Under the pieces are notes generated by a model. It was not told the origin of the DNA. It worked only from the letters and a program-made list of their open reading frames with translations, and did not search any database. The position numbers and the translations under genes are program-made. From Candidatus Paraburkholderia kirkii (lineage in GTDB: Bacteria; Pseudomonadota; Gammaproteobacteria; Burkholderiales; Burkholderiaceae), in assembly GCA_001189345.1 (NCBI GenBank), contig LFKV01000001.1:1-64000 (forward strand): a stretch of 64,000 nucleotides of DNA, read 5' to 3'. Shown here piece after piece: positions 974 to 64,000 of the stretch (its first letter is position 1; each line of letters opens with the position of its first letter).

Positions 974-1682
974 ATGTCGAACCGTTCATCACGGATCGCG
1001 CTTCTGTTGGCCGGCATCGCATTTGCTCTGATTGCACCGGCCGCCTCATACGCACAACTCAATCTCCAGCAATTCGGCTTCGGCAGCGGCAAGTCGGAGG
1101 TCGCCGCCGGCGCGAACGGCGCAGCGCAGCCGTCGGCGCTGAACTCGCTCGTGCAGAACTATCTCGGTGCGAATCAGCAAGTGCTCTCCGGACAGTCGAG
1201 CCCCGCATCGGCAATGGGCATGTCGAGCGTCGCGAGTCAGGCGCAGTCGGCAGCGGGATTGCTGTCGGGCGCGTCGGGCGGCAGCGGCGTGCCGAGCTCG
1301 AGCGTGCTGTCGCAACTCGGGGGCACGCAGCAGAGCGTGTCGCAATCGCTGATGCAGGCGTTTTCGAACGGCACCGCGACGCCGCCCACCGCCGCGAACA
1401 AGCAGACCTTCAGCGACGGTCTCACGTCGCTGGAGCAGGGCGTGAAACAGTACGCGGGCCTGCTCGGATCTCGGTTCCGTGAAGAACTCGATGAACATGT
1501 CGTCGCTGCTGCAGGCCGGCTCGAATCCAGGGACCGCGCAGGCGGCGACGTATATCGCGCAGTCCGCGCCGGGGTAACTGCAATCGCTCATGCAGACGCT
1601 CACGCAGGCCGTGCAGTACGCGAAAACCAACGGCATCTCGGTGCCGTCCGTCGCGACCTCCGCCCTGAGCGGCGCGAAGTGA
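974..1682 (+). pseudogene. Exported protein of unknown function, frameshifted and with a TAA stop
   Basis: The ATG at 974 follows a good GGGAG ribosome-binding site and starts a clear Sec signal peptide (IALLLAGIAFALIAPAASYA). The mature part is rich in Ser, Gly, Gln and Ala. The frame breaks at about 1465-1480, after KQYAGLL. The correct continuation (VKNSMNMSSLLQAGSNPG...) lies in another frame and ends in SALSGAK with TGA at 1680-1682. That second frame also has a TAA at 1575-1577, inside SAPG*LQSLMQ, most simply a CAA to TAA change. Two lesions therefore separate it from a protein of about 235 residues. I do not recognise the family. Confidence 0.7.
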
Positions 1683-1710
1683 CCTGACGCCGCGCGCTCG
1701 TCGCAAAAAA

Positions 1711-1738
1711 AACGGCAAGGCGCGCGAGCCTTACCGTC
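1711..1738. terminator. Bidirectional terminator-like hairpin
   Basis: A hairpin with arms around CGGCAAGGC (1713-1721) and GCCTTACCG (1728-1736) sits between the convergent genes at 974-1682 and 1762-2293. An A run precedes it (T run on the minus strand). This suits a terminator for the minus-strand gene. Confidence 0.6.
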
Positions 1739-1761
1739 TTACCTTGAATTCACCGTCTGCG

Positions 1762-2293
1762 CTATATCGCCGCCTGGCGCATCGCAAGACGCCTGAGAAG
1801 GGGCGTGGGCTGCTTCCGGTGCAACCTGGGCGGCAACGGCGGCAGATAGGAAATGTCGGCAAGACGTTCGAGCAGGTCCGCGCCGAGGACGTCGAGCGCG
1901 GGCGGTTCCACGGGCTCCGCTGCGGCGGTCTCCGGTTCTTCCACGGCGATGCCGAGACTGCGGCGCACGTCCACGCCGCGAATATGAACCTTGTATCCCG
2001 GCATCGCTGATGACGTGCTCGCGGGTTTTCCAGAACTCCAGCGCGGAGGACGTCATCGGATGCGTCGACACGTATTCGATCACGATCTCGTAGCCGCGAA
2101 CCTTCGGGTAATTCAACAGCAATTGGCCGGAGCGAAAATAACTGATGTAGCAGTCGATCTTTTCGTCAGGGCCTTTTGATGGGCTTGTTCCTCGCGCCAG
2201 TCGAGATCGTCGAAGAGCGCGATATACGCGCTTGAAAAGCACATCCACTCCGATGTAATCGATGACGTCCACGTCGCGCAGAGACATGGTCAT
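1762..2293 (-). pseudogene. DUF6572-like small protein, frameshifted
   Basis: On the minus strand an ATG at 2293 (or 2287) begins MSLRDVDVIDYIGVDV, the typical start of DUF6572-type proteins. The next expected block runs through another frame. Then KIDCYISYFRSGQLLLNYPK and YEIVIEYVSTHPM are read in the first frame, and a further shift near 2005 leads to GYKVHIRGVDV and a proline-rich tail ending at 1762. At least two frameshifts are needed to join the pieces. Such proteins are small and cytoplasmic with no established role. The family call rests on my memory of the N-terminal motif and is moderate. Confidence 0.55.
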
Positions 2294-2447
2294 TCCCCTA
2301 CGCCCTCAAGCGGGCAAATCACAAAGGAGTGCATTGTAACGGATACGCATCGTCGAATAATCGTGAAACACCGTATTGGCAGTATCGAAATCTCACTTTC
2401 GTAAGACTCCGAATTTCTGATTTAAGTGCAGTCTTATTGCGCTCTAA

Positions 2448-3221
2448 GAGGACGGTTTCATAAAGGCTGTTGAGATTGCCGAAGAGTGTTCCAGCAGATC
2501 AAGCAACAACCGAGTTTGAGGAACGCTTCATGAATGTCCGCACGACGTTCGAAGCGAGTACGTAGACGGCGGAAGTTATGCAACCAGGCATGTGTACGTT
2601 CGACGACCCAACGGACTTTCCCAAGGCCGCTACCGTGCGGGTGACCGCGCCGCGCGATGCTGGTGGGAATGTTGCGCGCGTGAAGGAGGCACCGGTACTT
2701 GTCATGATCGTAACCGCGGTCGGCATAAACACAGCCAGGGCGACTCAGCGGCCGGCCGCGCACGCCGCCAATCGGTACGATGGCCTCGATCAACGGGATC
2801 AGTTGGGTGACGTCGTGACGATTGGCGCCGGTCAGGATTGCCGCGATCGGCGTACCGTTGGCGTCGGTGGTGACGTGGTGCTTGGAACCGGGTCGTGCTC
2901 GGTCGGTGGGGTTCGGGCCAGTTTTTCGCCCGCCCCAACCGCACGAATCGACGATGAGTCGACGACGACGCGGGAGAAGTCGATCTTCCCGGCCGCTCGT
3001 AGTTTCGCCAGCAGCAGTGCGTGCAGTCGATCCCACACGCCGGCTTGCTGCCAATCGCGCAGCCTGCGCCAGCAACTGACGCCAGAGCCACATCCCATCT
3101 CCGCTGGCAGATCTCGCCACCGGATGCCGGTCTTCAGCACGAACAAGATGCCGGTCAGCGCAGCCCGATCCGGTACCGGCTTGCGGCCCGGATACTTGAA
3201 GCGGCGCGGCTTCGCTGGTGG
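2448..3221 (-). mobile_element. IS5-family (IS427-like) element, truncated by IS630
   Basis: One end lies at about 2448 (GAGGACGGTTTCAT), directly preceded by CTAA, which fits the YTAR-type target used by IS427-group elements. The transposase gene runs on the minus strand. The other end is missing: at 3222 the sequence passes into an IS630-family element, cutting the transposase near its N-terminus. The lost N-terminal part is not found beyond the IS630. Confidence 0.7.
2458..3221 (-). pseudogene. IS5-family transposase in two frames, N-terminus removed
   Basis: The first frame gives PAKPRRFKYPGRKPVPD, GILFVLKTGIRWRDLPAEMG and VVVDSSSIRAVG. The second frame continues GWGGRKTGPNPTDRARPGS through YADRGYDHDKY and WVVERTHAWLHNFRRL to the stop at 2458. 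This is the DDE transposase of IS5 elements, whose conserved D, D and E fall in the VVVDSS, YADRGYD and VERTHAW blocks. The switch occurs around an A run near 2927, and IS427-group elements normally use a frameshift there, so this break may be natural. The real defect is loss of about the first 15-20 codons at 3222. Confidence 0.75.
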
Positions 3222-4339
3222 TAGTGCGCTGCGTTATTGAATTAGCACCCTGTCTGTGTTCAGATACAGGTCATGGGTCAAAATGAACCTGACAGATATC
3301 GAACGTGAGCAACTGTTGTCGGCGGCGCGCAGCCGAACGGTGCGTGCGGCGGACGTGCGACGCGCAAAGTTGATCCTGATGCTCGAGGACGGCGAATCGC
3401 GCGACAGTATCATGCGCACACTGGGTTGCGATTCGCGCTTCATCGCACGCTGGTCGGGGCGCTTCCTCAGCGAGCGACTAGCCGGCATGTACGCCCGGCA
3501 CCGCGGGCGGGCGCCTACGCAGCCACCGGCCAAACTGGAAGCGCGGGTGCTCAAGTGCACCCTCAAGCACAAACCCGCCGACGGTTCGACACACTGGAGT
3601 AGCTACAAGCTCGCAGCAGAACTCGGCGACGTATCGGTCTCGGCCGTGCAGCGCATCTGGCGCAAGCACGGCATCAAGCCGCAGCAGTTGGAGCGGCACA
3701 TGGTCTCCAACGACCCGGACTTCGAGACCAAGGCAGCCGACGTGATCGGGCTGTACCTGAACCCGCCGGCGCACGCAGCGGTGTTCTGCGTGGACGAGAA
3801 GACCGCGATCCAGGCACTCGATCGCAAGGACCGTATGCTGCCGCTGTCGCCCGGGCGCGCCGAGAGTCACGGCTTCGAGTACAAGCGCAACGGCACGCTC
3901 AGCCTGTTCGCGGCGTTCAATACTGCCACCGGCGAGGTGCTGGGCAAGACGGTGGCGCGCCACACCAGCGAGCAGTTCGTGGCCTTCCTGACCGACGTCG
4001 TCGCCAGCCAGCCCAAACGCCGGGAAATCCACGCGATCTGCGACAACGTCAGCAGCCATAAGACGCAGCGGGTTGCCGACTTCCTTGATGCGCAGCGCAA
4101 CGTGCACCTGCACTTCACGCCGACCTACTCGTCGTGGCTCAACCAGGTGGAGAACTGGTTCTCGCGCATTCAGCGTGAAGTGATCGCTCGCGGCATCTTC
4201 ACTTCGGTGAAGGATTGGGATCGCAAACTGATGCCGATACATCCGCGAACACAACAAGAACCCGAAACCGATCAAGTGGAAATATGACGATCCTTCGCGC
4301 CGGATTCGACCAGTGCCAATTCAATGACGCAATGGAGTA
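3222..4339 (+). mobile_element. IS630-family element, copy 1, both ends present
   Basis: Inverted repeats share TGCGT(T/C)ATTGAATT(A/G)GCAC near 3229-3250 and, inverted, near 4312-4331. TA dinucleotides bound the element at 3222-3223 and 4338-4339, as expected for IS630, which duplicates TA. Unusually, the left flank is IS5 sequence and the right flank is IS3 sequence, so the element does not sit in one continuous target. A second, truncated copy starts at 11278. Confidence 0.8.
3283..4327 (+). pseudogene. IS630-family transposase, C-terminal frameshift
   Basis: The ATG at 3283 gives MNLTDIEREQLLSAARSR, followed by an N-terminal helix-turn-helix region. The DDE catalytic blocks are FCVDEKTAIQ, HAICDNVSSHKT and WLNQVENWFSRI. 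After the last block a one-base change near 4230 shifts the frame: the expected tail YIREHNKNPKPIKWKYDD ends in another frame at the TGA 4325-4327, whereas the actual frame ends at 4287. All catalytic residues precede the shift. Whether the altered tail still works is unknown. Confidence 0.8.
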
Positions 4340-4948
4340 GCCGAAGCAATGAAGCAGATTCGCGAGCTGCAGCGATTGCTAGGAAAGAAGACAATGGAGG
4401 TAGAAATCCTCCGTGAAGCAGTGGAGTATGGTCGAACAAAAAAATTGACTGCGCTCACCATTGCTGCCGGGGGACGACCGTTGAAGACGGTCTGTGAAGT
4501 CCTGGGGGTGTCGCGCTCGAATCTCGCAGTCGAGTCGAAGCGGCCGGCTGACTGGGTCGACCGGCGCAAGATGCCCGTGCTCGACGACACGGCGCTTGTC
4601 GCCGAACTTCATGAGTTGTTAGGCGACGCGCCGACGTATGGATACCGAGGTGCTTGGGCGTTGCTGAGGCGAAGCCGGGACATGCTGGCTCAACCGCGAG
4701 TAAATGCAAAGCGCGTGTATCGCGTGATGCGTCGCCACGGCCTGCTGCTTGAACATCGCCCTCGGCACGCCTCGTCTACGCGTCGGCATGACGGCAAGGT
4801 CGCGGTGGATAGCAGCAACATGCGCTGGTGCTCGGATGGCTTCGAATTCCGCTGCGATGCCGGTGTCCCATTGCGTGTCGTCTTCGCACTCGACTGTTGC
4901 GACCGCGAAGCCATGAGTTGGGCCGCGAGCACAGGCGGTTACACTGGC
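4340..4948 (+). mobile_element. IS3-family element, middle fragment
   Basis: This is an internal piece of the same IS3 element as at 1-799. The left side is cut by the IS630 element at 4339. The right side stops abruptly at 4948, after which the sequence no longer matches the first copy. Bases 4583-4948 match 1-366 exactly. Neither terminal repeat is present. Confidence 0.8.
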
Positions 4949-4951
4949 TGA
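4349..4951 (+). pseudogene. IS3 transposase fragment, OrfA tail joined to OrfB
   Basis: The frame starts [20 protein letters not shown] (coiled-coil tail of OrfA) and runs without break across the A7 run at 4437-4444 into [12 protein letters not shown] and the OrfB N-terminus. In many relatives this A run is the site of programmed frameshifting; here the two parts are already in one frame. The fragment ends by chance at a TGA directly after the junction at 4948, before the second and third catalytic residues, so it cannot be active. Confidence 0.8.
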
Positions 4952-4965
4952 GTCACGCCGTTCGC

Positions 4966-5151
4966 ATGAGCATTCTTCGCCTCTGTGACAGCGCGGTCGA
5001 ACAGTGCGAGTCCTCTATCGAGGAATTGATGGTGCATGTGGAGCGCCTGAAGAATGCACTCAGCATCCACGAACAGCATTTGCTCGGCCTCAAACGGCAA
5101 CTCCGTTGTAAAGACACGCTCCATTCTCGCGAGGTATCACCCGACACTTAA
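4966..5151 (+). CDS. Small hypothetical protein (61 aa)
   Basis: An ATG at 4966 just beyond the IS3 breakpoint opens a 61-residue frame beginning MSILRLCDSAVEQCESSIEE. It is rich in Glu, Leu, His and Arg and looks helical, with possible coiled coil through EELMVHVERLKNALSIHEQ. No signal peptide or membrane segment is seen. The breakpoint lies only 17 bases upstream, so this may be a 5'-truncated or newly exposed frame. I do not recognise it. Confidence 0.4.
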   Translation: MSILRLCDSAVEQCESSIEELMVHVERLKNALSIHEQHLLGLKRQLRCKDTLHSREVSPDT

Positions 5152-5510
5152 TCGGTATTGGACGTTGCATCGCAGCGAGCTTTATCCTGAGCCTGCCATC
5201 GGCTTACTGCATTAGAACGACAGAAGAAGCACACGGAGACTTCGCGCAAGCCACGGCAGTGGCCGGCAGCGACCGACACAATCACGACGACGCAGGCGCC
5301 GGGCATGCAGCGCGCGGCGCGCTGTCAGCAGTTCGAGCAACATTCGTTTCCTTACGAGCACGATCACGACAAGGTGATTCGATAGACGTTTCGCCCTTGA
5401 TCGACTCGGTATGCGGCATTACATATATAAATAAGCATAACGAATTAGTCAGTATTTTAAATCTGCTGAAAACAATACGAGATTCAAGTTTTGGAGAAAA
5501 GGAGATATCC
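5152..5510. other. Non-coding stretch upstream of the MFS gene
   Basis: I see no convincing gene. The last 100 bases are A/T-rich compared with the surroundings (for example ACATATATAAATAAGC near 5420), a likely promoter region for the transporter. It ends in a strong Shine-Dalgarno, AAGGAGATATCC at 5499-5510, touching the ATG at 5511. Confidence 0.5.
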
Positions 5511-6854
5511 ATGCGTCAGATCGACCCTCAACGCGTATGAGACGAATCCCGGTTCGGGAAGTTTCACGTTCTTCTTTTGTTCTGGTGCGCGCTTATCATC
5601 ATTTTTGACGGCTACGATCTCGCGGTCGTCGGCATCGCGCTGCCGTCCATCATGCGTGACATGGGCGTGCAGCCGACAAGCGCCGGTTTCATGGTCAGCT
5701 CCACATTGTTCGGGATGATGCTCGGCGCGATCTCCCTCGGCACCATCGCGGACCGCATCGGCCGTGTACGCGCGATCGCGATCTGCATCGTGCTCTTCAG
5801 CGTATTTACCGCGGCCGTGAGACTGACCAGAGATCCCGTCATGTTCGGTATCGCGCGTCTGCTCGCAGGGCTGGGCATCGGAGGAGTCGTACCCAATGTC
5901 GTCGCGCAGATGACCAAATACTCGCCGCGCAAGATCCGCAGCACGATGGTCACGCTCATGTTCAGCGGCTACTCGGTCGGCGGGATGCTGGCTGCGCTGG
6001 TGGGCAAGGCGCTCATCGAACGCTTCGGCTGGCAGTCGGTGTTCTTCGCGGCGGGTATTCCTGCTGTTCTTGCGCCGGTGATCCTGCTGTGCATGCCGGA
6101 TTCAATGTCTTTTCTCGTGCGAACGGGGCGCATCGAGCAAATGAAGAAGATTGTTGCGCGCATCGATCCCGCATATCGTGCGCAGGCCGATGACGTCTTC
6201 GCGCTTTCAAGTCAGGAACCGGCGCACGGCTCGACGATCGCGCGGCTGTTCGCGGACGGCCGCGGCTTCAGCACCGTCATGTTGTGGACAGCGTTCTTTA
6301 TGTGCCTCTTCATGGTCTACGCCTTGAGTTCGTGGCTGACCAAGCTCATGGCGAGCGCGGGCTACAACCTCGGCTCCGCGCTGACCTTCGTTCTCGTGCT
6401 CAACTTCGGCGCGATGGTCGGCGCAATCGGCGGCGGATGGCTGGCGGACCGTTTCAATATCAAGTACGTGCTCGTCATGATGTACGCGCTCGCCGCAGTG
6501 TCCATCAGCCTGCTGGGCTTCAAGGTTCCAGTCGGAATACTGTTTTTCCTGGTGGGGCTGGCCGGCGCATCGACCATCGGTACGCAGATCGTCACGTATG
6601 CGTTCGCAGGGCAATTCTATCCGGCAGCGGTCCGGTCGACCGGAATCGGCTGGGCATCGGGTGTGGGTCGGAGCGGTGCGATTCTCGCGCCAATCGTGAT
6701 TGGCTATCTCGTGAGCCAGGCGTTGCCGCTGCAGCAGAACTTCATCGCGATCGCCGTGCCCGGCGTGGTCGCGGTCGTCGCCGTGAGTCTCATCCGGACG
6801 AGCCGTTCCTCGCAAGCCACGCCAGACGCGGTCGCAGAAGCGGATCCTGCATGA
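5511..6854 (+). pseudogene. MFS transporter, aromatic acid:H+ symporter type, stop at codon 10
   Basis: From the ATG at 5511 the frame reads MRQIDPQRV, then TGA (5538-5540), then continues in the same frame DESRFGKFHVLLLFWC. The stop is most simply a CGA to TGA change. Downstream the protein is complete: 12 membrane segments, the AAHS motif FDGYDLAVVGIALPSIM in helix 1 and the MFS loop motif GTIADRIGRVRAI. It would import aromatic or related acids with protons across the inner membrane. Reinitiation at the TTG at 5577 is possible but would lose the N-terminus and lacks an obvious ribosome-binding site. It is followed closely by a porin, a likely uptake pair. Confidence 0.75.
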
Positions 6855-6916
6855 CATACCCGGTGCATTCAAAACCTCTTTCTCCATTGCATTCGATTAA
6901 AACAAAGGAGATATCC

Positions 6917-8141
6917 GTGATCAGGAAGTGTCGATAAGCGTCGGACTCGCGTGTGCTTCGACGGCGCACGCGCAAAGCAGCGTCACGTTGTACGGAGTAA
7001 TCGATCTAGGCGTCACGTATCTGAACAGCGCGCAGGTGGGCAGGGCGGACAATCAATTGAACGGCGCAAGTCAGGTCGCCATGACCGATGGACATGCAAC
7101 AGGGCTGTCCGGCAGCCGATGGGGCTTGCGCGGGGTCGAGGATCTCGGTGGCGGCATGCAGGCCCTCTTCGTGCTGGAAAACGGCTTAATGGCCAATACC
7201 GGCTCGCTCGCGCAAGGCGGGGCGGAGTTCGGAAGACAGGCCTTCGTGGGGTTGTCGCTGCCGTGCTTCGGCACGCTCACGGCGGGCCGTCAATATGATC
7301 CGCTTGTCGAGTCGGTTCAGCAGTTCGCGGCATCGGGTAACTGGGGCGGTTACATGTCGTCTCATGTCGGGGATGTCGATAATCTCAGCAACACGAGTCG
7401 AGTCAACAATTCCTTGAAGTTCGCGACTTCGCCGCTCGGTGCATTGAAGCTCGAAGGGCTCTATAGTCTCGGCGGCGTGGCGGGGAATGCGACCCAGAAT
7501 CAGGTGTGGTCGCTCGGTGCCAGCTATGCCGGAAGCGCCTTCAATGCCGGCGTGGGCTATCTCAACGCGCGCAATCCCAATGTGTTGTTCTACGGCAATA
7601 CACCGAACAAGGACCTCGCTACTGCCAACAACATCGGCTCGCTCGGCTCGGCCACAGCGCCGGAGGTCTTGCCTGCCTATGCTGGATATGTGTCCGCGAA
7701 CACGCTGCAGATCGTCGGCGTCGGCGCCTCTTATGCGATCGGCAAGACCACGGTGAGCATCGTGGGCACCAGTACTCGCTTTCAGGCATTGGGGTCGGAC
7801 TCGGGACCCAATCCACTCGGATATACCGGGAACGCCACGATCAATAGCGCGGAACTGGGCGTGGCACTTTCGTGACCCCTGCGCTCGTCGCCGGAACGGC
7901 GTTCGACTACACGCAGCGAAGTTCAGTCAAAGGCGACGGCGGAGCGAAGTACATGCAACTCGATGCGGGTGTCGACTATCTCCTTTCGAAGCGCACCGAG
8001 ACCTATCTGTTGGCTGTGCTCCAGCGCGCGACGGGCCGGGATTCGCTCGGACAGGCGGCAGTGGCCAACATCAGCGGTTTCACCGCATCGTCAACGGACA
8101 AACAGATTGGTGTTTGTCTTGGGATTCGGCACAAATTCTAG
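6917..8141 (+). pseudogene. Outer-membrane porin (Gram-negative porin family), frameshifted twice
   Basis: A GTG at 6917 follows AAGGAGATATCC, the same leader as the upstream MFS gene. It reads MIRKC and then hits TAA; the signal peptide continues in another frame as ISVGLACASTAHA, leading to QSSVTLYGVIDLGVTYLNS, the classic Burkholderia porin start. Typical blocks follow (SGSRWGLRGVEDLGGGMQA, FGTLTAGRQYDP). The frame is lost again at about 7870, and the C-terminus (YMQLDAGVDYLLSKRT ... GIRHKF) ends correctly in Phe at 8141. An intact version would be a trimeric beta-barrel of about 400 residues. Confidence 0.8.
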
Positions 8142-8493
8142 GCTGAGGAAGACAAGGGCCTCGATGCAAATATCGCGTCTTGCCACCGCAAGGACTCCGC
8201 TTCGTTGTTGATGCGCTGGCCACGTGTGTTCAAAGAACATGATCCGCGACGGCCGCACCTCGGGGAAGTGTGGCCGTCGCGTACGCACAGCGATCAGTTG
8301 TGTTCCGACAGCAGCCACGCAACTAACCGTCGTTTTCCACCACCACCAATATGGCTTCGCCATCGATGCGTACAGGAAACCGTGCTCGTCGCCCATTCGA
8401 TTCTGCTTGCCTGAAATTTCCGCAACTGCTACTTCAACGAACCGGTGCAGTGCGCGAGGATGAGACGAGCGATAAATCTTTGGGATAAAAGTC
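8142..8493. other. Non-coding stretch after the porin
   Basis: No gene with homology that I can recognise. Its one notable structure is a strong hairpin at 8246-8280, listed separately. Short open frames on both strands look like chance frames. Confidence 0.5.
8246..8280. repeat. Strong hairpin, 13-bp arms
   Basis: Arms GCGACGGCCGCAC (8246-8258) and GTGTGGCCGTCGC (8268-8280) pair with one mismatch around a 9-base loop. No T run follows on either strand, so it is not a canonical terminator. It may still stop or protect the porin transcript. Confidence 0.6.
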
Positions 8494-8697
8494 ATGGAGC
8501 TGATCCGCATGATCCGCATTGTCTTGTCGAGTTTCTTCGGTGTGCACAAGCGCGCCTCGCATGAAGCGGATTTCGCAAACGTCAATATCGTGATGCTGCC
8601 GTTCGTTGCCGTGATACTCGCCCTGATGATCGGGGCGGCGATCTTCGGCTTCGTCCACCTGGTTGCAGACTTCACCAGCTCGAGGCAAGGTTTCTGA
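8494..8697 (+). CDS. Small membrane protein, DUF2970-like (67 aa)
   Basis: The 67-residue protein begins MELIRMIRIVLSSFFGVHKR and has one hydrophobic segment (VNIVMLPFVAVILALMIGAA) near its C-terminal half. The layout (short basic N-terminal region with SFFGV.KR, acidic stretch, one membrane helix) matches what I recall of DUF2970 proteins of beta-proteobacteria. Their role is unknown. It stands alone and has no visible lesion. Confidence 0.6.
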   Translation: MELIRMIRIVLSSFFGVHKRASHEADFANVNIVMLPFVAVILALMIGAAIFGFVHLVADFTSSRQGF

Positions 8698-8844
8698 TCC
8701 ACGCGGATTTGAGCTTCGGGCTCCGGGAATAGGGGGCGTGAATTGCAGCATCACTACTGCCAGGCGCGACGACCCGCCGCATGTGGCATGAACGAGGTAC
8801 GGCGTCGGCTACATCGCGCATCGCACGAAGCACCATCAATCTGC

Positions 8845-9564
8845 CTATGCCTGTCGATATGAAATAAAGAACCGTTCAGCGAGGGCGCCGAATAGTAGGC
8901 CGATCGTTGTCCAGAGAATGACCTGCATGCCAATTGCGGCGACGCGGAATTTCCAGAGCACAACGGCAGGAAACTCAGCCGGAACCTCGTTGATGACCGG
9001 CAAGAGCCATTGCGCCACCACGATGATCACGACATACAAGAGTCCCGATAGGATGGACGCGTTCCAGTCACCCATGGTGGCGATCGCTCGGCGGCGGGCC
9101 TTGAGTGAGAAGATCATGGCCACAATGGAGATCGCGATCATGAGAAAGAATAGACCTGTCCGATATCCGATGGTCTCCGGGTCGCCAACTGACGGCGGGT
9201 TGGCGGGATATTTGATGTTGGGCACGATCACGATCGATATGAACGCCGCGAGCGCGAGCCATGCTGAGAGCGAGCGGGCCTGGAGCCGCCCCGCCCGGCC
9301 ATAGAGATACGCAAATGTCAGCGCAAATATGCCGCCCATCGCGGCTCCATATGTCATCATGCCGGTGAATAGCCCCAATCCCGCCTGAGTGTGCCGGCTC
9401 ACGAGCTCGGGCTCCGGCGCCTCGCCTTTGGCGGCATCGAGCTTTTCCTCGAAGGAGATGGCTTGATCGACTTGCGGCTCGCCAGCCAGTTTCGCGAAGC
9501 CGAATGTGAGAAGTCCCGCGGCGATGCCTGCAAGCATGCCCCGCACCAGCAGCTTTCCGACCAT
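8845..9564 (-). CDS. cbtA: Cobalt transporter subunit CbtA
   Basis: The 239-residue integral membrane protein starts MVGKLLVRGMLAGIAAGLLT and has about five to six membrane segments, with the TRHTQAGLGLFTG-like block seen here as VSRHTQAGLGLFTGMMTYG. This matches the CbtA family of predicted cobalt uptake proteins. It lies directly downstream of cbtB (12 bases between stop and start) and behind a cobalamin riboswitch, so B12 levels should repress it. Conserved His residues lie in the VSRH region. The gene appears intact. Confidence 0.85.
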   Translation of the reverse strand: MVGKLLVRGMLAGIAAGLLTFGFAKLAGEPQVDQAISFEEKLDAAKGEAPEPELVSRHTQAGLGLFTGMMTYGAAMGGIFALTFAYLYGRAGRLQARSLSAWLALAAFISIVIVPNIKYPANPPSVGDPETIGYRTGLFFLMIAISIVAMIFSLKARRRAIATMGDWNASILSGLLYVVIIVVAQWLLPVINEVPAEFPAVVLWKFRVAAIGMQVILWTTIGLLFGALAERFFISYRQA

Positions 9565-9576
9565 TTGGCGCTCCCG

Positions 9577-9786
9577 TCAGTGGCAGGGAAACTCGAGCAA
9601 ATGCCGTCCGTCATGCACGAACTCGTGGACGTACATGCCGGGGACGATGGACGTCGCGCCTTCTTCCGCGCCGACGAAATAAATGGCGATCAACAGCAGC
9701 AAGCCGCCGAAGACGACCCAGGGCAGAAGCTCGCTGATTGGAATGGGCGCCGGCGCTGCAGCCGGCGAGGAAGCGATGATATTCAT
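9577..9786 (-). CDS. cbtB: Cobalt transporter subunit CbtB
   Basis: The 69-residue protein has one membrane helix (LLPWVVFGGLLLLIAIYFVG) and ends with the His-rich motif MYVHEFVHDGRHLLEFPCH, the hallmark of CbtB and presumably the metal-binding site. The start at 9786 follows a GGGAGATGTC Shine-Dalgarno. It precedes cbtA in the same operon under the riboswitch. Intact. Confidence 0.88.
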   Translation of the reverse strand: MNIIASSPAAAPAPIPISELLPWVVFGGLLLLIAIYFVGAEEGATSIVPGMYVHEFVHDGRHLLEFPCH

Positions 9787-9799
9787 GGCAGACATCTCC

Positions 9800-9950
9800 C
9801 GAGGGTTTCGCGCCCTTCGATGATTCAGGAAAAAACGCGGAAGGTCTGGCTTTCGATTCGGATGCAAACCGATTACAGTGGCGCGACCGCGCCGGAATTC
9901 CACCGGCTTCCTCTCGGCGTATCGCTCGCATTCTACGCTCGAAATGTCCG
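9800..9950 (-). promoter_or_regulatory. Cobalamin riboswitch upstream of cbtBA
   Basis: On the minus strand the core consensus is plain: GGAAGCCGGTGGAATTCCGG, then GCGCGGTCGCGCCACTGTAA, then GAAAGCCAGACCTTCCGCG (the B12 box, about 9841-9858). The core spans about 9841-9915 and flanking stems extend both ways. The B12 box sits 55 bases before the cbtB start. Binding of adenosylcobalamin should switch off cobalt uptake. Exact outer limits are estimated. Confidence 0.9.
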
Positions 9951-10866: not shown

Positions 10867-10890
10867 CAAGACTCGGCTAACGTTCGACGA

Positions 10891-54223: not shown

Positions 54224-54224
54224 G

Positions 54225-55277: not shown

Positions 55278-55299
55278 TGAGGGGTCTCCAGTGCGAATG

Positions 55300-56226
55300 T
55301 CACAGCTCGAAGGTCATGCCGTCGTGCGCGACTTCGATGCCGTGCTCCGACAGGATGCGCCTTTCGGGTCCGTCCTCGACGAGGATCGGATTCGTGTTGT
55401 TGATATGGATCAGCACTTTTCGCACGCCCGCGCGGTCGATCGAATCGAGCACGTCGATCATGCCGCCCGGGCCGCTCTGTGCGAGATGGCCCATGTCCCT
55501 GCCGGTCTTCTTCGTGAGTCCGAGGCGGATCATCTCGTCGTCGGTTCAGACGGTGCCGTCGACGAGCAGGAGATCGGCTTCGCGCATGGCATCGAGCACG
55601 TGCGCGTCCAGCGCGCCCAGGCCCGGCGCATAGAACGCGCGCTTGCCCGTCGCGCTGTTCGTGAACATCAGGCCGATGTTGTCGCCGACTTCCGGCGCCT
55701 CGCGATGCGGCGAATAGGGCGGCGCCTTGCTCGACAGAGGTAATGCGTCGATCGTCACGCGCGGCAGCTCGGGCACGGAGAACGAAGCGCCGTCGAGCGC
55801 GATGCGCCTGTGCTCGACGCCGCAGTAATGCGAAAGGATCGACGTGATCGGGAAGCCCGTGGAAAGGTCCTGCCATACCGCATTCGTCGTATAGAGCGGC
55901 AGGGGCGTGCCGCGCTCGCGCAGCATCAGGAGGCCGGTGACGTGATCGATCTGCGCGTCCATCGTGACGACCGCGGCGATACCCGTATCGCGGACCTGGC
56001 GCGCGGGTTGCAGCTCGGTATTCGCCGCGATCTGCGCGAGCACGTCCGGCGATGCGTTGACGAGCAGCCAGTCCTCGCCGTTGTCGGTGACGGTGATCGA
56101 CGATTCCGTGCGCGCGCGCGCTGCGACGGTGCCGCGCCGCACGCCGTCGCAATTGCGGCAGTTGCAGTTCCATTGCGGGAAGCCGCCGCCCGCCGAGGAG
56201 CCCAGCACGCGGATTTTCAAGGCCAC
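55300..56226 (-). pseudogene. pqqB: PqqB, Trp codon changed to TGA
   Basis: The GTG at 56226 follows GGAGGAT and starts MALKIRVLGSSAGGGFPQWN, with the CNCRNCDGVRRG Zn-binding region. DAQIDHVTGLLMLRERGTPL and PPYSPHREAPEVGDNIGLMF are further PqqB landmarks. At 55546-55548 the frame has TGA between LLVDGTV and [20 protein letters not shown]; relatives have Trp there (TGG to TGA). The last about 82 residues follow in frame to 55300. PqqB is a metallo-beta-lactamase-fold hydroxylase that oxidises the Glu-Tyr intermediate. The break should inactivate it. Confidence 0.9.
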
Positions 56227-56789
56227 ATCCTCCGCAGGAGACCGTCGCGGTCGATCAGTTGATGCTTCATCGCGCCGAGAAAGTGCAGTATGACCAGCGC
56301 GGCCATGATCCACGCGAGATACTCGTGGATGCCGAAAAAGACCTGCCGCAGATGCTTATCGTCCCAGCCCCATTGCGGCAGCGCCAGGCCCCAGAACTTG
56401 GTGCCGTACTTGTTGAACGACGAGCCCAGATAACCGGTGAGCGGCATCGCCACCATGCCAACGTATAAAAGAGCCTGCGTGATGCTCGCGGCGGCGCGTT
56501 GCCACGCCCGCATCGGCGGCAGAGGCGGACGGCCATAAGCCAGGCGTACCAGGATGCGGATCAGCACCAGCAGGAAAACGGTGATTCCAAGCGACTTGTG
56601 GAAGTTGACGAGGTCCGACTTGAACGGCAGTCCGCGCGGCAGGCCGACCATATAGAAGCCGATGCACAGCATCGCGATGATGGCGATCGCGATCAGCCAG
56701 TGCAGCGCGATCATCGGGCGCGCATAACGCTCGCTTGCGGCGTTCAGGCTGCCGTCGCGCGAGGTTGCGGAGGTCCGCGCGGTGCTCAT
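56217..56789 (-). CDS. Cytochrome b561-type membrane protein
   Basis: The 190-residue protein has four membrane helices: PMIALHWLIAIAIIAMLCIG, LGITVFLLVLIRILVRLAYG, ITQALLYVGMVAMPLTGYLG and FGIHEYLAWIMAALVILHFL. Haem-ligand His residues lie in ALHWLIA, FHKSLGI, IHEYLAW and ILHFLGAMKHQ. It overlaps the start of pqqB by ten bases and is preceded closely by fhcC, linking the two pathways. It may pass electrons from a periplasmic dehydrogenase to quinone. Intact. Confidence 0.87.
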   Translation of the reverse strand: MSTARTSATSRDGSLNAASERYARPMIALHWLIAIAIIAMLCIGFYMVGLPRGLPFKSDLVNFHKSLGITVFLLVLIRILVRLAYGRPPLPPMRAWQRAAASITQALLYVGMVAMPLTGYLGSSFNKYGTKFWGLALPQWGWDDKHLRQVFFGIHEYLAWIMAALVILHFLGAMKHQLIDRDGLLRRMWP

Positions 56790-56853
56790 GGCATCTCTCC
56801 CGTAAAAATGGTTTTCGATCCACAGTATACAAGGTCCATTCTTTCTCGCTCGG

Positions 56854-57574
56854 CTATGAATTGGCGATCAGCAATTCCCCCCGTCCGTCCACCGCGAGGT
56901 CGCCTGCGTAGCGCCGCGGCAACACATCGCCCGCGAGCGTTGCGAAGCACGCAAACCCGTGCGCGGTCTCGCGCGCGAGCATGCGCGTGAAAAGCAGCCA
57001 GAACACGTCGAAGCCGTGTCCGCCTTCGGTGAAGGTCGGCGGAATGCGAGACGGCGCGTTCGTCAGAAGCACGGTGCCGCGCCGCATGCGGTCGCCCAGC
57101 CGCGCGCCGGCGCTGCCGCGGATCGCGAGCGTGCCGCCGGTCATGCTTTCCATGTCGCCGGGCAGCGCGCCCGCCGCGAAATCGCCGGCATTGCCTTGCA
57201 CGCTCAGACGTCCGCCCTGCATTTCGCAGGCGGCGAACAGGCCTGCGTCGGCCATATAGGTGCAACGCGCCGCCGGACATCTTCATGCCCGCGAAATCGC
57301 CCGCGTTGCCGTGCACCGTGAGCGTGCCCTCGCGCATGTTCGCGCCTACCTGGTCGAGCCATTGCAACGTCGCCCTCGATTGTGAGCGACGGTTCGTCCG
57401 CGTCCGCCTGCGCGATGTCGAAAAGATCGCCGAGCGCGCAATGTTCTCCCGTGCCTTGCAGCGCGATGCGCGGCAGTTCAGCCGACGAAGCAGCCGCAAG
57501 CGCGGCGGGCAGTAATTTCGACCCGTCGACGCGAAAGCCCGGCGCATTTTTACGCGCAACGTGATGGCGTTCAT
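56854..57574 (-). pseudogene. fhcC: Formyltransferase/hydrolase complex subunit C (FhcC), frameshifted
   Basis: The ATG at 57574 overlaps the fhcD stop (ATGA). Blocks in order: NAPGFRVDGSKLLPAALAAA, CALGDLFDIAQADADEPSLT, QVGANMREGTLTVHGNAGDF, GNAGDFAAGALPGDMESMTG, GTLAIRGSAGARLGDRMRRG and FDVFWLLFTRMLARETAHG. The glycine-rich parallel-beta repeats are those of FwdC/FmdC. Shifts at about 57545, 57375 and 57255 separate them. In methylotrophs FhcABCD releases formate from formyl-H4MPT via methanofuran. Confidence 0.87.
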
Positions 57575-58508
57575 GCGCGGCTCCCGTCGATGCCCTGCGA
57601 CAGCTCATGCAGCCTGAAGTGATACGGCCCGAGCTTGCCGCCGTAATTGCCCGCGGAAATGCGCAGCACGCCGCTCGCGCGCCCGAGGTTCGTCGCGGCG
57701 GCGATGCCGGCCGTCATCGCGGCGCCGACGTCGGCGTCGGTCAGGCCGTCGATCACGATTTCGAGCACGCATGCGACGTCGGCCGTCAGCTCGCTCTTCT
57801 TCAACAATCCGACGAGCGTCGGGCAGAACGCGTCGTTGGTGGACGCCGTCGCGCTCGCGTACTTCGAGCCGATTTTCGAGCCCGAGCGCACCACGCCGCC
57901 CGGAAACGGCGTGATGATATTCGGCAGGCGATGCATCGCCGCGACGGCGGCTTCCGCCGCATCCAACGCGCTGTCGAGGTCGCGCGCGAGCAGCAGCAGA
58001 TTGCCGCCGCCGACCGCTTTCATGGTGGCGGTGAAATCCTCGCAGACGAACTCGCCGTCCATCACAGGCACGCGCCAGTAACGCGTGCCGTCGAGCACTT
58101 TCGAGATCTGCCAGCCGTCGCCGAAGAAGCGCAGTCCCGCGCCGAGCGGCGCGTCGTCGGAGAGCGGGGCGCGCTCGTCGCGGGATCGATGCCGCCGTAC
58201 ACTGCCGTCGTCGGGCACGTCAGCACGCATTGCCCGACGCGGCGCGACCTGCCTGGCCAGTTCCTTCGACGATATCGCGAAGATCAGCACCGCGACGCCG
58301 GGCCGGCCGTCGGCGTTTCGTCGCCGGACAGATCGCGCTCGATGCCCGCCTCGCAGCCGCAATCGATGACGGACGTGGCGAACCCCGTCAGCGAGTTGGC
58401 CGCGTGCCGCGCCCACGTCGGCATGTGCGCGGTGATGACGAGACGCGTCGCCTTCATCGGGAAGGCTTCGGCGAAGGTGTCGTCGATCTGCGTGTTGTTG
58501 ATGCGCAT
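57571..58508 (-). pseudogene. fhcD: Formylmethanofuran:H4MPT formyltransferase FhcD, frameshifted
   Basis: From the ATG at 58508: MRINNTQIDDTFAEAFPMKA, RLVITAHMPTWARHAANSLT and GFATSVIDCGCEAGIERDLS, then shifts near 58300 and 58200, after which DDAPLGAGLRFFGDGWQISK, YWRVPVMDGEFVCEDFTATM, GSKIGSKYASATASTNDAFC and VLRISAGNYGGKLGPYHFRL follow to the stop at 57571. Blocks such as CVLTCPTTAVYGGI lie in the disturbed part. The enzyme moves the formyl group between H4MPT and methanofuran. Two indels only. Confidence 0.88.
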
Positions 58509-58513
58509 CGCCG

Positions 58514-60203
58514 TCACCTTTCGCCCGCGGCGAAGCACGCGACCGGCAGCAGCCGTCCGCCATTGCAGCACGCGCAGACTTCGTCGTCGTCGATCGCTAT
58601 GTTCTCGAAGCGCGTCGCGAAGTTCGCTTGCGCATATTCGCGTATGCGCTTTTCGATCGAGCGGTCGTAGTCCGGGTTCACGTAATGAATGGAATGCCGC
58701 CCGTGGGCGTGGCGAGCAGCGTGCCGTCGCGCGCGATCAGTTCGCCGTCCTTGAACACGAACGCGGGCGACGTGAACATGCGCTCGCGGTCGGCGTCGTC
58801 GCGATACACGGCGATATCCGCTGCCGCGCCCGCGCCGAGATGCCCGCGACCCTTCAGGCCGAGCAGCTTCGCCGGACCGGCGCGCGTGATGATCGCGATG
58901 TCGTACAGCGAGAACTCGCGCGTGATTTCGCTCAGGGCGCTGGCGGTCTTCGCATCGGCGTGCAGCTTGTCGAGTTGTTCGTCGCGGAAGGACTTGTCCA
59001 TCAGCAGGCGGATCAGATGCGGATAGCTCGTGAAAGGGCCGCCGTTCGGATGGTCGGTCGTCGTCGACACGCGCCACGGATCGTCGGCGAACAGAAAGAT
59101 TTCCAGCCCGATGATCCATTGCAGCGCGTTCACGAGGCTTTGCTCGCGATAGCGGAACGGCACGACGCCGCAGCCCGCGTCGCATTCGATATCGCCGAGC
59201 ACCCATTTGCGCGGACGGGCCATCGGCGCGTTCCTGAACTGCATCATCGTGTCGCCGGATGCGGTGACCGTCTGGCCGAAGATGATCTGGCCGACATCGA
59301 TCGTCACGTTGGGCCGCGCGTTCACCGCTTCGGCGATCGCCCGCGCGCCCGACGAGAACTTGCGCAGGCTTTCCGCGCCGTAGCGCGTCAGATGAATGGG
59401 CAGGCCTTCGGCGGCGTCCATCGTCTTGATCGTCGATTCGAGGTTGCCCGGCACGCCCAGGTTGCTCGCGTGAACGTGCAGCGGATGGGGCACCCGCAGC
59501 TCGGTGAGCGCGCGCGTGAGCGTCTTTAGCACCTCGCGCGGCGTGATGCCGTAATGCACGTGCCTTTCGTCGACGTCCAGAGAATGCTGATTGAACTTGA
59601 ACGCCGAGATGCCGCCCGGATTCACGACTTTCACGTCGAGCGCCTTGCTCGAACCGATGGTCCAGCCGACGTAATCGCGCAGGCGCTCGAAGTCTTCGTT
59701 CGCGGCGAGCATCTGCAGAAAGAGCTTGTCGTTGCCGCTCATCACTTAGGCGCCGTGATCGATGATCGGCGTGTCGCCCATTTCCAGATGGGCGTGGCGC
59801 GCGTTCGATGCGATCATCGCGGGCTCGAATACGGCCGTGTAGCCCATCTCCGCATAGCGATAGCCGGTTGCGAGCGTGCCCGGCGCGCACACGCCGCAAG
59901 AGGGCAGGCGCATGTAGCGGCCTTCGTCGGGACGATCGGGCACGGCGCGCAGATCGTCGCGATGATCTTCCGGCAGGAGCAGGCGCGAGAGATTCGTCTT
60001 GCCGCCGCCGATGTGCGAATGCAGGTCGATGCCGCCGGCCATCACGACCATGCCGCTCGCGTCGAAGTCGCGCTCGGGCGCGACGGTGTCGCCTTGGGCG
60101 TAATCGACGATACGGCCATCGCGGATATGGATGTCGCGCTTCGCGCCGTCGACGCCGTTGGCCGGATCGTAGAGCGTGCCGCCTCTGAGGCGCGTGGGCT
60201 CAT
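58514..60203 (-). pseudogene. fhcA: FhcA (formylmethanofuran dehydrogenase subunit A-like amidohydrolase), frameshifts and TAA
   Basis: The ATG at 60203 overlaps the fhcB stop. The frame shifts immediately, then reads RLRGGTLYDPANGVDGAKRD, MVVMAGGIDLHSHIGGGKTN (metal-binding HSH) and TGYRYAEMGYTAVFEPAMIA. A TAA at 59746-59748 follows IIDHGA; the same frame resumes VMSGNDKLFLQMLAANEDFE, HVHASNLGVPGNLESTIKTM and FADDPWRVSTTTDHPNGGPF. A last shift near 58678 leads to the end YDRSIEKRIREYAQANFATR ... CNGGRLLPVACFAAGER. It is the hydrolase that frees formate. Confidence 0.88.
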
Positions 60204-61420
60204 TGCGGCCTCCTTGCCTGGGCGAGCCGCGATGCGATCGTCGCGACGCTCGGCAGGCCTGTGTCGCGCGCGGCGGCGAGCGGCGCGACCACGGAAGTAT
60301 CGACGCGAAAGAGGTGGCCGCCGCTGTTGATGCTTGGCGTCGCGACGGGGATGAACACGGTCGGGCCGGTGCGTGCGGGCAGCGTCGTCGACGGATGGCC
60401 GAGGACGATCGCGGGCATGGTGTCGTCGAGCGCTGCGGGCAGCGGCTCGGGCGCGAAGCTCGACACCCACAGGAGCGCATCGGGTTCGCGGCGGTTCAGG
60501 AGCGTTTCGGTGCGGTAGCGATACGCGTCGTGATCGAGCGGCAGGCCGTATGCGACGCGCGTGCGCAGCGGGAAGCCCGAGAGCCACGTCGCCGCCTGAT
60601 TGACGGTCAGCGCGCCGTCGTCGCCGGCGAGTGCGAGCGCGCCTGCGCGGACGGTGCGGTTGACGGCCTTGACGATGCGCTGGAGCGCTTCGATCGCGAG
60701 CGCCGCGTGCGGCGCGGGCAGCGACGACGGCTCGTAGATGAACACGGTGTATTTTGCGGCGCTGATGTGCTCGGTCAGGGCGACGAGCTCGGGCGCCGGA
60801 ATCGGGCGGCCGCTTTCCATATGCGCTGACCAGAGTGCGAGAGTATCGAAGGGATCGATTGTCTGCGGAATCGATTCGGTTCGGCTGGTTCGTGCCCAGG
60901 CGGCCTGATCGATGTCGCACCCCACGAACACGACGCTCGTTGCGCTGCCTTCATCGATGATGCGTTCGTAGAAGTGCGGATAGCGCCGCGACGGCTCGCA
61001 GGCGAACACGATGACGAGATCGGCGCGCGAGCGCACTTCGGAGAGCGTCGTAAAGAAGGCGCCGCGGTTCTGCAGGGCGCGATTGGAATTGGCGAGCGTA
61101 TCGCCGTGCAGATGATCGAGGATGGCGCCGCAGTGCGCGGCGAGTTCATAGAGCGCGCGTGCGCCGGCCACGTCGGTCGCGAGGCCGCCGAAGAGCGGCC
61201 GCCGTGCGTTCGACAGGATCTCGCCGGCCCGCGAGAGCGCCGATGCGAGATCGGTGCTTTGTCCGTCGATCGTGGGTTTTTGGTTTGCATCCTGCGGACC
61301 GAAGCGGGCAAGCGAGTCTGCCAGACGCGGGCAGGCGGTGTGCGGCGCTGCGAGCCGCTGATCGCCGGTGGGTGCGAGCGTGATGTCGTCGCATAGCAGT
61401 GGGCATAAATATTGAGTTAC
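60200..61420 (-). pseudogene. fhcB: FhcB (formylmethanofuran dehydrogenase subunit B-like), start lost or unclear
   Basis: The frame reads TQYLCPLLCDDITLAPTGD near its start (a degenerate CPxCxxxCDD-type region) and runs unbroken to 60200 through PLFGGLATDVAGARALYELA, VIVFACEPSRRYPHFYERII, YGLPLDHDAYRYRTETLLNR and SGGHLFRVDTSVVAPLAAAR. It is the molybdopterin-fold subunit without the catalytic cofactor in methylotrophs. In frame there is no usual start codon after the hisA-like stop (61417-61419); an ATG in another frame lies near 61445. One indel at the start would explain this. The rest is complete. Confidence 0.82.
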
Positions 61421-62148
61421 CCCACCGACGATCCGCGTCCCACATCGCGACGAATGCAAACCGTCCCGAATCGCGGAAGCGACGAGCCACGCGTACGCGC
61501 CGCTGTCGGCGGCAAGAGCGAGATCGGCGTCATGGCGGACGCCGCCCGCCCCGATCATTTCACGCTCACCGGCGAGCGCGCGCACGTCGGCGAACGTATC
61601 GAGATCGGGCCCGGCGTAGGCGCCCACGTGATCCAGCGTCATCACGATCACGCGCGACGGCCACCACGCGCTCCCGGCATGCGTTGAGCCGAGGGCGGTC
61701 CGCCGCGATAGTCGAGCGAGAGAATCGGCTTGAAGCCGCACGCCGACGCTTCGGCGATGGCGCCCGTGTCGAGCAGGGTCTCGGTGCCGAACACGGGCAC
61801 GATCGCGGCGCGCGATGCGGACCGCGACAGGCGCGTGACACGTTCGACGAGCGCCCGCCTCGGGGCGAACGCGGTGAAGCCCGCGTCGAGCCAGATGTCG
61901 ACGCCCTCGCCGAGCGCATCGCACAGCGCGGCAAGCGCCTCGTCGTGCGCGCCGCGCCGCAGGATCGCGCCCAGGTCCGCGACGTACAGCGTACGCGAGC
62001 CGGTGGCGGCGACGAGCGCACGGGCGATCGCAACGGGATCGCTCGTCGCGCACAACGAGGACTGGATCGGCCGGTAGCGCGAACGCTCGCCGCGCACCGC
62101 GCGCACCGCATGGCCGTCGAGCAGATCGAGAACGGGTATCACCTGCAT
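61417..62148 (-). pseudogene. HisA/HisF-like protein of the H4MPT/methanofuran cluster, frameshifted
   Basis: The ATG at 62148 gives MQVIPVLDLLDGHAVRAVRG, SRYRPIQSSLCATSDPVAIA, LYVADLGAILRRGAHDEAL, DIWLDAGFTAFAPRRALVER and GFKPILSLDYRGGPP, a TIM-barrel protein of the HisA-related family. A shift near 61690 leads to VIVMTLDHVGAYAGPDLDTF and EREMIGAGGVRHDADLALAA. A further shift near 61445 gives an end at TAA 61417-61419. This HisA-related family occurs in methanopterin/methanofuran gene clusters; its exact reaction is not known to me. Confidence 0.78.
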
Positions 62149-63197
62149 GGATGGCTTTCCTTTGATCAAGATCTTTGTATTCGAGTATCTCACCGGCGGC
62201 GGCATCGATCCGGACGCGGCGGGCATGGGCAGCCTCGCCGATCTCTCGGCGCTGATCGTCGAGGGCCGCGTGATGCGCGATGCCATCACCGCCGACCTGC
62301 GCGCGCTGCCGGGCATCGAGGTGACCGTTGCGAGCTCGCGCTTCGAACAGTTCGACGACGCCCGGCGCCACGTGCGCGGGCAGCCGGGCGAGCCGCTCAC
62401 GCGCTTCGTCGCCCGCATGGCCCGCGAACACGACTATGCCTGCATCGTCGCGCCCGAGTGCGACGGATTGCTCCTCAAGCTCTACGACGCCGTCGGCCAG
62501 GCGCGCTGGCTCGGCTGCGCGAAGGAAGCGCGCGGCATCGAGCAAGAGCGCGACGGCCGCGTGTCTCGCCGCGCGCGGCATCGCCGCCACGCCCGCGCTC
62601 GAATCCGACGCCGCCGTCGCGGGAGCCGGCCGCCGCTGGGTCGTCAAGCCCGACGACGGCGCGGGCGGCCTCGATGCCTACGTCTATGACGATCTCGATG
62701 CCGCGCGCGCCGAATACGAAACGCGCGCGGCATCGGGCCGCAATCCCGTGCTGCAGGAATGGATCGACGGCGAACCGCTGAGTCTTTCGCTCATCTACCG
62801 CGAGCGCCTCGCGCGGCTCGTCAGCATCAACCGGCAGCGCATCGGACTGTCGGGTGCGGCGGGGTCGGAGCGCCGCGAGCGCATCGTCCAGTTCGACGGC
62901 GTGGACGTCGATCGCATCGAGCGGCACGGACCGCAGGGGCGCGCGCTGGAGCGTCTGGCGCTGCGGGTCGCCGAGGCGTTCCCCGGCTTGCGCGACTTCG
63001 TGGACATCGATGTCGTGTGGCATCCGGAGTTGGGACCAATCGTGATCGAGGTCAATCCGCGTCTGACGGTCGCGTATGCGGAACTGAGCTGGCGCGGTGG
63101 GAAGAACCTCGCGGCAGAGTTGCTCGCGGCGCATCGCGTGCCCGGCTTCGACGGCGACGCCCGACGCCTGCGCGCATGCGGCGGAGCATCGTCATGA
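62147..63197 (+). pseudogene. ATP-grasp ligase of the methanofuran pathway (MfnD-like), frameshifted
   Basis: The ATG at 62147 (or TTG at 62162, giving MIKIFVFEYLTGGG) starts IKIFVFEYLTGGGIDPDAAG, LIVEGRVMRDAITADLRALP and YACIVAPECDGLLLKLYDAV. A shift near 62540 leads to AACLAARGIAATPALESDAA, WVVKPDDGAGGLDAYVYDDL, VLQEWIDGEPLSLSLIYRER and PIVIEVNPRLTVAYAELSWR, the ATP-grasp metal site (E.NPR). The family is close to tyramine-glutamate ligase MfnD of methanofuran synthesis. The start codon overlaps that of the divergent hisA-like gene. The 3' end overlaps the next gene (ATGA). Confidence 0.8.
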
Positions 63198-64000
63198 CGA
63201 CGTTTTCCGAGGCGCCGGTGTTCGGCTGGGACGTGGGCGGCGCGCACGTCAAGGTATCGCTGGCGACGCGCGCGGGCGCGCTCGTCGACGTCGCGCAATG
63301 GGCGTGTCCGCTGTGGCAGGGCATCGCGCATTTGGAGCGCGTGATCGACGGCGTGCTGGAGCGCTGGCCCGGCGCCGCCGATGCGTCGGCGCGCCACGCC
63401 GTCACGATGACGGGCGAAATGGTCGATCTCTTCGCCGACCGCGCCGAGGGCGCGCACGCTCACGCGAACGCTGGTTCAATGGCTCGGTCCGCGCACGATG
63501 TTCTATGCGGGAGATGCGGGCTGGCTCGCGCGCTCGGCGTGCGCGGACGGCTGGCGCAAGGTGGCGTCGGCGAACTGGCTCGCGACCGCGCAATGGGTCG
63601 CGACGCGCGTCCCCGATGCATTGCTCGTCGATATCGGCAGCAAGACCACGGACATCATTCCGATCGTCGGCTCCCGTGTCGCGGCGCGCGGCGCGAACGA
63701 CGCGGAGCGTCTGATGAGCGGCGAGCTCGTCTATCAGGGCGTCGTGCGCACGCCGTTGTGCGGGGTAGCGCATCGCATCGCGTTTCGCGGCGAGACGAAC
63801 GAATGGTTCGCGACCACCGCGGACGTGTATCGTCTGACAGGTGAGCTGCGGCCCGAGCACGATCAGCATCCGAGCGCGGACAACGGGCCGAAAACGGAGG
63901 CCGCGAGCCGCGCGCGCATTGCGCGGATGATCGGCCGCGACGCCGCCGATGCGAGCGACGCCGAATGGCGGAGCTTCGCACAAGGCTGGCGGCACGAGCA
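63194..64000 (+). pseudogene. H4MPT-linked C1 pathway protein (hydantoinase/oxoprolinase-like, MfnF-like), frameshifted, 3' end outside window
   Basis: The ATG at 63194 gives MTTFSEAPVFGWDVGGAHVK, VSLATRAGALVDVAQWACPL and HAVTMTGEMVDLFADRAEGA, an ASKHA-type nucleotide-binding start. A shift near 63470 leads to MFYAGDAGWLARSACADGWR, ANWLATAQWVATRVPDALLV, DIGSKTTDIIPIVGSRVAAR and GELVYQGVVRTPLCGVAHRI, and the frame runs on to the window end. This is the protein linked with H4MPT-dependent C1 transfer; archaeal MfnF, which couples the two halves of methanofuran, appears to be the same family. It follows mfnD-like by overlap. Confidence 0.8.

Follow-up and report, generated by a model that had tools for sequence, protein, structure and literature searches.

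We analysed the first 64,000 bases of contig C1 of assembly G000 (hereafter the window) and conclude that this DNA is almost certainly part of the eroding chromosome of Candidatus (Ca.) Burkholderia kirkii UZHbot2. This leaf-nodule partner of Psychotria has not been cultured and clusters with Caballeronia. Frame-breaking insertions and deletions (indels), stops and larger deletions occur at approximately 1.6–1.9 per kilobase (kb) in the window and in three further stretches of the same genome, with zero in the polymerase/ribosomal region. A first-pass annotation had described frameshifts throughout the window and had proposed the early reductive evolution of a host-restricted symbiont, such as the leaf-nodule Burkholderia: the observation was confirmed and the interpretation is supported, so that a lifestyle was correctly read from the letters alone and frameshifts everywhere are in this case biology rather than sequencing error.

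The assembly comprises 3,914,712 bases in 48 contigs and is 97.34% complete; the row for Ca. B. kirkii UZHbot2 in a table of PMC4896955 gives exactly the same number of contigs and of bases. A protein scan against named genomes placed the window in Caballeronia, closest to C. ptereochthonis LMG 29326, a soil isolate that served as reference relative (G047). At 3.9 megabases (Mb) the genome is far smaller than those of free-living congeners, as is characteristic of leaf-nodule symbionts: that of C. ptereochthonis measures 7.7 Mb, and 49 of the 58 genomes of the genus lie between 5.1 and 10.3 Mb. Positions 18995–61408 of the window are colinear with contig G047:C35 at a DNA identity of 89–94%, save for one 123-base piece at 84.6%; the longer stretch 18995–64000 is also colinear with four further relatives (76–91% identity), the control relatives being G046, G001, G009 and G011. 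The window is thus a well-placed example, with a close soil relative and outgroups that allow breaks to be assigned to one branch. The counts out of 37 genes cover 18995–61408, leaving out 1–18995, which is not colinear with the relatives, and 61408–64000.

Gene disruption in the window and its relatives

In order to count disrupted genes, a leave-one-out rule was applied in which each genome was judged only where three other relatives stay open. Under this rule the window has 24 disrupted genes out of 37, compared with 1 of 37 in G046, 1 in G001, 4 in G009 and 3 in G011; the events in the window, spread over 37.6 kb, are 12 stops and 59 frameshifts or large indels. One of the 24, at 53024–54247, is interrupted solely by stops close to its two ends (codons 6 and 406 of 407) and was therefore counted as intact, giving 23 broken and 14 intact genes, in line with the earlier claim that most genes are broken. 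The rule replaced an untrimmed count, in which 27 of 38 window genes and 14, 14, 18 and 12 of 38 in the relatives had been flagged: over-long gene starts gave false breaks there and inflated the controls, and one of the 38 genes dropped out on replacement. Alignment with the four relatives also yielded 103 clean indels private to the window, 69 of which are at most 30 bases long and not a multiple of three, whilst the relatives have 29, 20, 13 and 17 clean private indels, with 15, 12, 11 and 12 short frame-breaking ones among these.

Decay beyond the window

The first-pass annotation had called the decay genome-wide. Three stretches of 20 kb from contigs C15, C10 and C23 were picked by position only, leaving out parts unmatched in G047, and compared with this relative: 7 of 13, 12 of 16 and 8 of 15 genes carry breaks (27 of 44 together), with 1.6–1.9 events per kb. 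Under the same rule the window has 24 of 39 genes broken and 1.63 events per kb. The rpoB/ribosomal region, located on the same contig as the window, is spared, with none of 30 genes broken by this rule and none of 32, in 26.9 kb, by a looser rule under which the window has 30 of 43 broken; the region of the nuo operon has 5 of 28 broken by the stretch rule and 8 of 31 by the looser one, which is suspected of a false break near the start of one gene in this region owing to an over-long gene start. Many pseudogenes with housekeeping genes spared is a feature of early reduction, as is recent expansion of insertion sequences (IS), and the IS proliferation noted earlier is borne out too: an IS630-like element, present in the window as a full copy, has spread recently and occupies at least 38 further places in the genome at 97–100% identity (among the best 40 of 383 candidates), besides the window copy and the overlap with contig C24 described below, whilst the best 40 candidates in G047 include only partial traces at 89% or less.

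Mode and tempo of decay

Changes were assigned to branches using G047 and four outgroups. On the window branch deletions outweigh insertions, with 92 (5,515 bases) and 48 (213 bases) respectively, although the event count is too high because the aligner divided one large loss into several; the G047 branch has 10 deletions (22 bases) and 16 insertions (146 bases). For 20 deletions of at least 30 bases the mean junction homology is 1.5, against 0.79 by chance, and reaches 4 bases or more in 3 of the 20; given that the aligner cut a single loss at 45.9–46.1 kb into about half of these 20 deletions, the microhomology result is weak and no mechanism was drawn from it.

The ratio of nonsynonymous to synonymous change (dN/dS), estimated per branch as omega, is 0.230 (0.194–0.275) on the window branch and 0.118 (0.089–0.147) on the G047 branch, and a simpler count over broken genes only gives 0.178 against 0.089. 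Purifying selection is thus weaker on the window branch than on that of C. ptereochthonis, by about a factor of two in omega, and the relaxation is recent; the first-pass annotation had held the changes to be recent and had suggested this comparison with a free-living relative. A sheltered life in the plant and vertical transmission by small populations would have made many catabolic, chemotaxis, two-component and one-carbon genes unneeded, and inactivating mutations would then have been fixed by drift before the DNA could diverge; this would account for the good conservation that persists from one break to the next. Residence in leaf nodules and vertical transmission are stated for Psychotria symbionts in passages of PMC8599487 and PMC3168474.

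Several observations weigh against this account of recent relaxation and drift. Omega is raised alike in intact (0.247) and broken (0.223) genes, hence it is not clear that selection acts more strongly on the survivors; the 14 intact genes compare with 9.0 ± 2.4 expected from random hits, a mild excess only, and many genes scored as intact may simply not have been hit yet. If constraint vanished late, the neutral share of the branch amounts to 13% (8–18%) from missense changes and to 33% (17–54%) from 11 nonsense changes: the two agree poorly, and the nonsense value suggests a longer neutral phase. New mutations in the window are not more AT-biased than those in G047, the ratio of GC>AT to AT>GC changes being 1.88 against 1.92, and the stronger AT bias than in the free-living relative that served as a test of early reduction was consequently not seen; AT bias is a mark of old reductions, not a defining one. 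Furthermore, the 4 and 3 genes scored as broken in G009 and G011 indicate that a few calls reflect faults of alignment or gene model, and the breaks themselves are read from an assembled sequence.

The discrepancy between missense and nonsense changes bears on a rival explanation, according to which inactivations were partly favoured by selection, chemotaxis, one-carbon and two-component functions being costly, rather than fixed by passive drift only. Nonsense changes are some 2–3 times commoner than the missense excess predicts (11 cases in the 37 genes of 18995–61408), an excess which may be due to chance or to selection for gene loss. The nonsense changes number just 11, however, the onset of relaxation may differ among genes, intact genes show the same omega as broken ones and no single function stands out among the losses; we therefore regard a contribution of selection as unlikely. 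That null changes (stops and perhaps frameshifts) were fixed approximately 2–3 times faster than the missense excess predicts, loss itself being advantageous in the plant, appears improbable to a similar degree; if true, it would mean that losing some functions was of itself an advantage inside the host.

Sequencing error and mutators

Far less probable still is that the frameshifts are indel errors from sequencing or assembly, the rival that the first-pass annotation had itself put forward. The small frame-breaking private indels are mostly one base long (42 of 69), 11 of the 54 one-base indels fall within runs of at least 4 bases, far more than would match how much of the sequence such runs make up, and the overlapping contig end described here marks an unfinished draft: positions 1–8154 of contig C1 overlap the end of contig C24 (G000:C24:38060–46213). 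The same overlap nevertheless shows 4 mismatches and no indel over its 8,154 bases, and 33 full IS630-like copies, including that of the window, contain 69 mismatches and no gap base in 36,962 bases; two more copies have 2 mismatches each and no gap, giving 35 copies without an indel, although both tests are blind to errors copied by the assembler. None of the 32 genes of the rpo region on the same contig is broken, and in-frame stops and deletions of up to 2.2 kb are not indel errors. Clustering of breaks at homopolymers had been named at the outset as a sign of error, and 43 of the 54 one-base indels were found in runs of 1–3 bases. On this internal evidence we consider sequencing error to be excluded as the main cause. 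Runs do attract indels here, as replication slippage would also have them do. As for the overlap, its near identity indicates that C24 and C1 are probably neighbours left unjoined by the assembler, or else a very recent duplication.

That a mutator (e.g. through defective mismatch repair) caused the breaks in a bacterium that otherwise lives freely is scarcely credible either: the number of small frameshifts per neutral change (0.10–0.27) may be high and the transition share is 0.71 in the window against 0.64 in G047, but MutS is full length with 920 open codons, most one-base indels fall outside runs, and a mutator alone would not halve the genome.

Retained symbiosis genes and known systems

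EEVS-type cyclitol genes are a feature of leaf-nodule symbionts and are present in this genome. On contig C43 there are two members of the DHQ-synthase family, with open frames of 404 and 406 codons, which come in addition to the AroB-type copies; for both members the best solved-structure match is 4p53 'Cyclase', which we take to be the valiolone synthase ValA. Their neighbours encode aminotransferases, a GH4-type protein, an inositol-dehydrogenase-like protein, a GT20 glycosyltransferase and a nucleotidyltransferase; such EEVS-type genes are absent from G047 and G046, the two relatives checked. Among the 58 genus genomes, one of the two EEVS-type copies has matches in 6 at E<=1e-60: G000 itself, G003 (94%), G015 (91%), G034 (87%), G042 (85%) and, distantly, G066 (40%), with G015 being Ca. 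B. verschuerenii, letter-for-letter over 7,155 bases. Four genes checked in this cluster are open in G000, G003 and G034, whilst one of them carries a stop in G015 and two are disrupted in G042. For the second cyclitol cluster no close relative was found in the plasmid collection, 19 records of which gave short matches at 60–80%. According to passages of PMC8599487, Ca. B. kirkii carries EEVS on a 140-kb plasmid, pKIR01, and nodulated leaves contain kirkamide and streptol glucoside; open symbiosis genes alongside broken general genes fit this published biology. One of the two AroB-type copies (G000:C41:24275–24613) is open over just 189 codons, compared with 367–381 for the two copies of G047, and may be broken too.

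The genome erosion of Ca. B. kirkii is already known from the literature, and what is added here is its measurement: a passage of PMC8599487 speaks of 'massive erosion' of the genomes of UZHbot1 and UZHbot2 (Carlier and Eberl 2012; Pinto-Carbo et al. 2016, through citing papers), and nothing that we tested differs. Terms for genome reduction gave no match in PMC10405798. Reduced genomes of 2.4–6.2 Mb are given in PMC4896955 for leaf-nodule symbionts including Ca. B. verschuerenii UZHbot4. The latter shares the EEVS cluster with kirkii, as seen above, but is not closely related in its chromosome, with 83% identity to window positions 48803–52383 compared to 94% for C. ptereochthonis, and thus genome reduction in kirkii looks independent of that in verschuerenii. 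Two further systems offer a comparison: Sodalis glossinidius differs from kirkii as an insect symbiont and gammaproteobacterium, and the plant symbiont Nostoc azollae as a nitrogen-fixing cyanobacterium. The former is likewise host-restricted, with almost 50% pseudogenes as stated in PMC7067036, and genome erosion in a vertically transmitted plant symbiont is likewise stated in PMC2900214.

Genes of the colinear stretch

Breaks in the genes listed below were determined by alignment to the relatives, and names derive from Pfam searches with the C. ptereochthonis orthologues, except for hpnB, hpnA and cheB, which are names from the first-pass annotation; where the labels HpnH-type and PqqB-type go beyond the Pfam family, they are presumed. 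All of the following genes, which that annotation had given as frameshifted, were found broken: CstA, hpnB, the ispH copy, fhcC, fhcD, fhcA, hpnA, cheR and those for the DnaJ-like protein, acylphosphatase and Cache kinase. Its counts (at least 4 frameshifts in cstA, 4 in hpnB, 3 in the ispH copy and 3 in fhcC) were equalled or exceeded, and breaks are also present in the interval that it named cheB.

18995–61408, colinear with G047:C35: basis of the gene counts
20285–21685 (−), Cache-domain histidine kinase: broken, 2 frameshifts and 2 stops
21854–23935 (+), CstA: broken, 5 frameshifts
24276–25577 (−), radical SAM/DUF3463 protein (HpnH-type): intact
25444–26407 (−), LytB/IspH copy: broken, 4 frameshifts
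26602–28012 (+), family 2 glycosyltransferase (hpnB): broken, 5 events in the clean part and 8 in total
28044–28708 (−), conserved gene without Pfam match: broken, 1 frameshift and 1 stop
28830–29286 (−), monomeric isocitrate dehydrogenase: about 80% deleted, and a stop
29286–30148 (−), NAD epimerase (hpnA): broken, 3 frameshifts, end lost to a 2.2-kb deletion
30260–33096 (+), hybrid histidine kinase: broken, 7 indels (one of 310 bases) and 2 stops
33069–33937 (+), CheR: broken, 1 frameshift
34.0–34.4 kb, interval called cheB: four deletions, one of 116 bases and three small and frame-breaking
34451–35590 (+), response regulator-histidine kinase: broken, stop at codon 295 of 379
35608–35953 (+), acylphosphatase: broken, 4 frameshifts
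35955–37135 (−), histidine-specific methyltransferase family: broken, 1 frameshift
37344–38321 (+), EamA transporter: intact
38322–38829 (−), Mpo1-like protein: broken, 2 frameshifts
40404–40970 (−), SLT transglycosylase: intact
41076–42369 (−), MFS transporter: broken, 1 frameshift and a 129-base deletion
42584–43141 (−), HD-domain protein: broken, 1 frameshift
43697–44280 (+), DnaJ-domain protein: broken, 2 frameshifts
45874–46098 (+), SulP/STAS transporter remnant: about 10% left
46438–46998 (+), DUF3280 protein: intact
47185–48249 (+), beta-propeller (YNCE-like) protein: intact
48803–51299 (−), TonB-dependent receptor: broken, 2 frameshifts and 1 stop
50837–52386 (+), histidine kinase: intact over the judged 62% of its length
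54531–55277 (−), TENA/PqqC family protein: intact
55300–56832 (−), Lactamase_B_2 (PqqB-type) protein: shortened by a stop within the domain
56854–57772 (−), FhcC (GXGXG): broken, 3 frameshifts and a 114-base deletion
57571–58571 (−), FhcD (FTR): broken, 3 frameshifts
58514–60203 (−), FhcA (Amidohydro_3): broken, 2 frameshifts and 1 stop

At 54531–56832 the intact PqqC-type gene adjoins the stop-shortened PqqB-type gene. Three open reading frames of 389–692 codons, at 46219–48294 (−), 53054–54220 (+) and 57568–59526 (+), have no Pfam match and lie opposite conserved genes; they were dropped as genes and taken as antisense frames, long examples of which are usual in GC-rich DNA.

Window start and insertion sequences

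The following mobile elements were located in the first part of the window:

1–800 (+), IS3-type transposase region (rve integrase core): Pfam rve, rve_3 and HTH_21 on 34–759, near-identical copies elsewhere in G000
3222–4341 (+), IS630-like insertion sequence, full copy with open transposase frame: Pfam DDE_3
4583–4948 (+), identical partial copy of the IS3-type element found at 1–800
11278–11989 (+), second copy of the IS630-like element, truncated: 99.7% over 712 bases

The flanks of several IS630-like copies (L121–L152) adjoin one and the same repeated sequence, as if the element often inserts into or beside another repeated element. Positions 925–2444 and 2441–3224 match different contigs of G047, which fits a rearrangement within 1–18995. 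Genes for an MFS transporter and a porin lie at 5577–7872, the porin (6928–7872) with a Pfam Porin_4 match; the C. ptereochthonis matches listed for this segment are short, partial and confined to the porin part, so that these genes were possibly acquired in the kirkii lineage or lost in C. ptereochthonis. Further downstream, a cobalamin riboswitch at 9822–9967 (−) (Rfam RF00174, 35.9 bits) is located upstream of a gene for a CbtA-type cobalt transporter at 8845–9564 (−), an ordinary arrangement.

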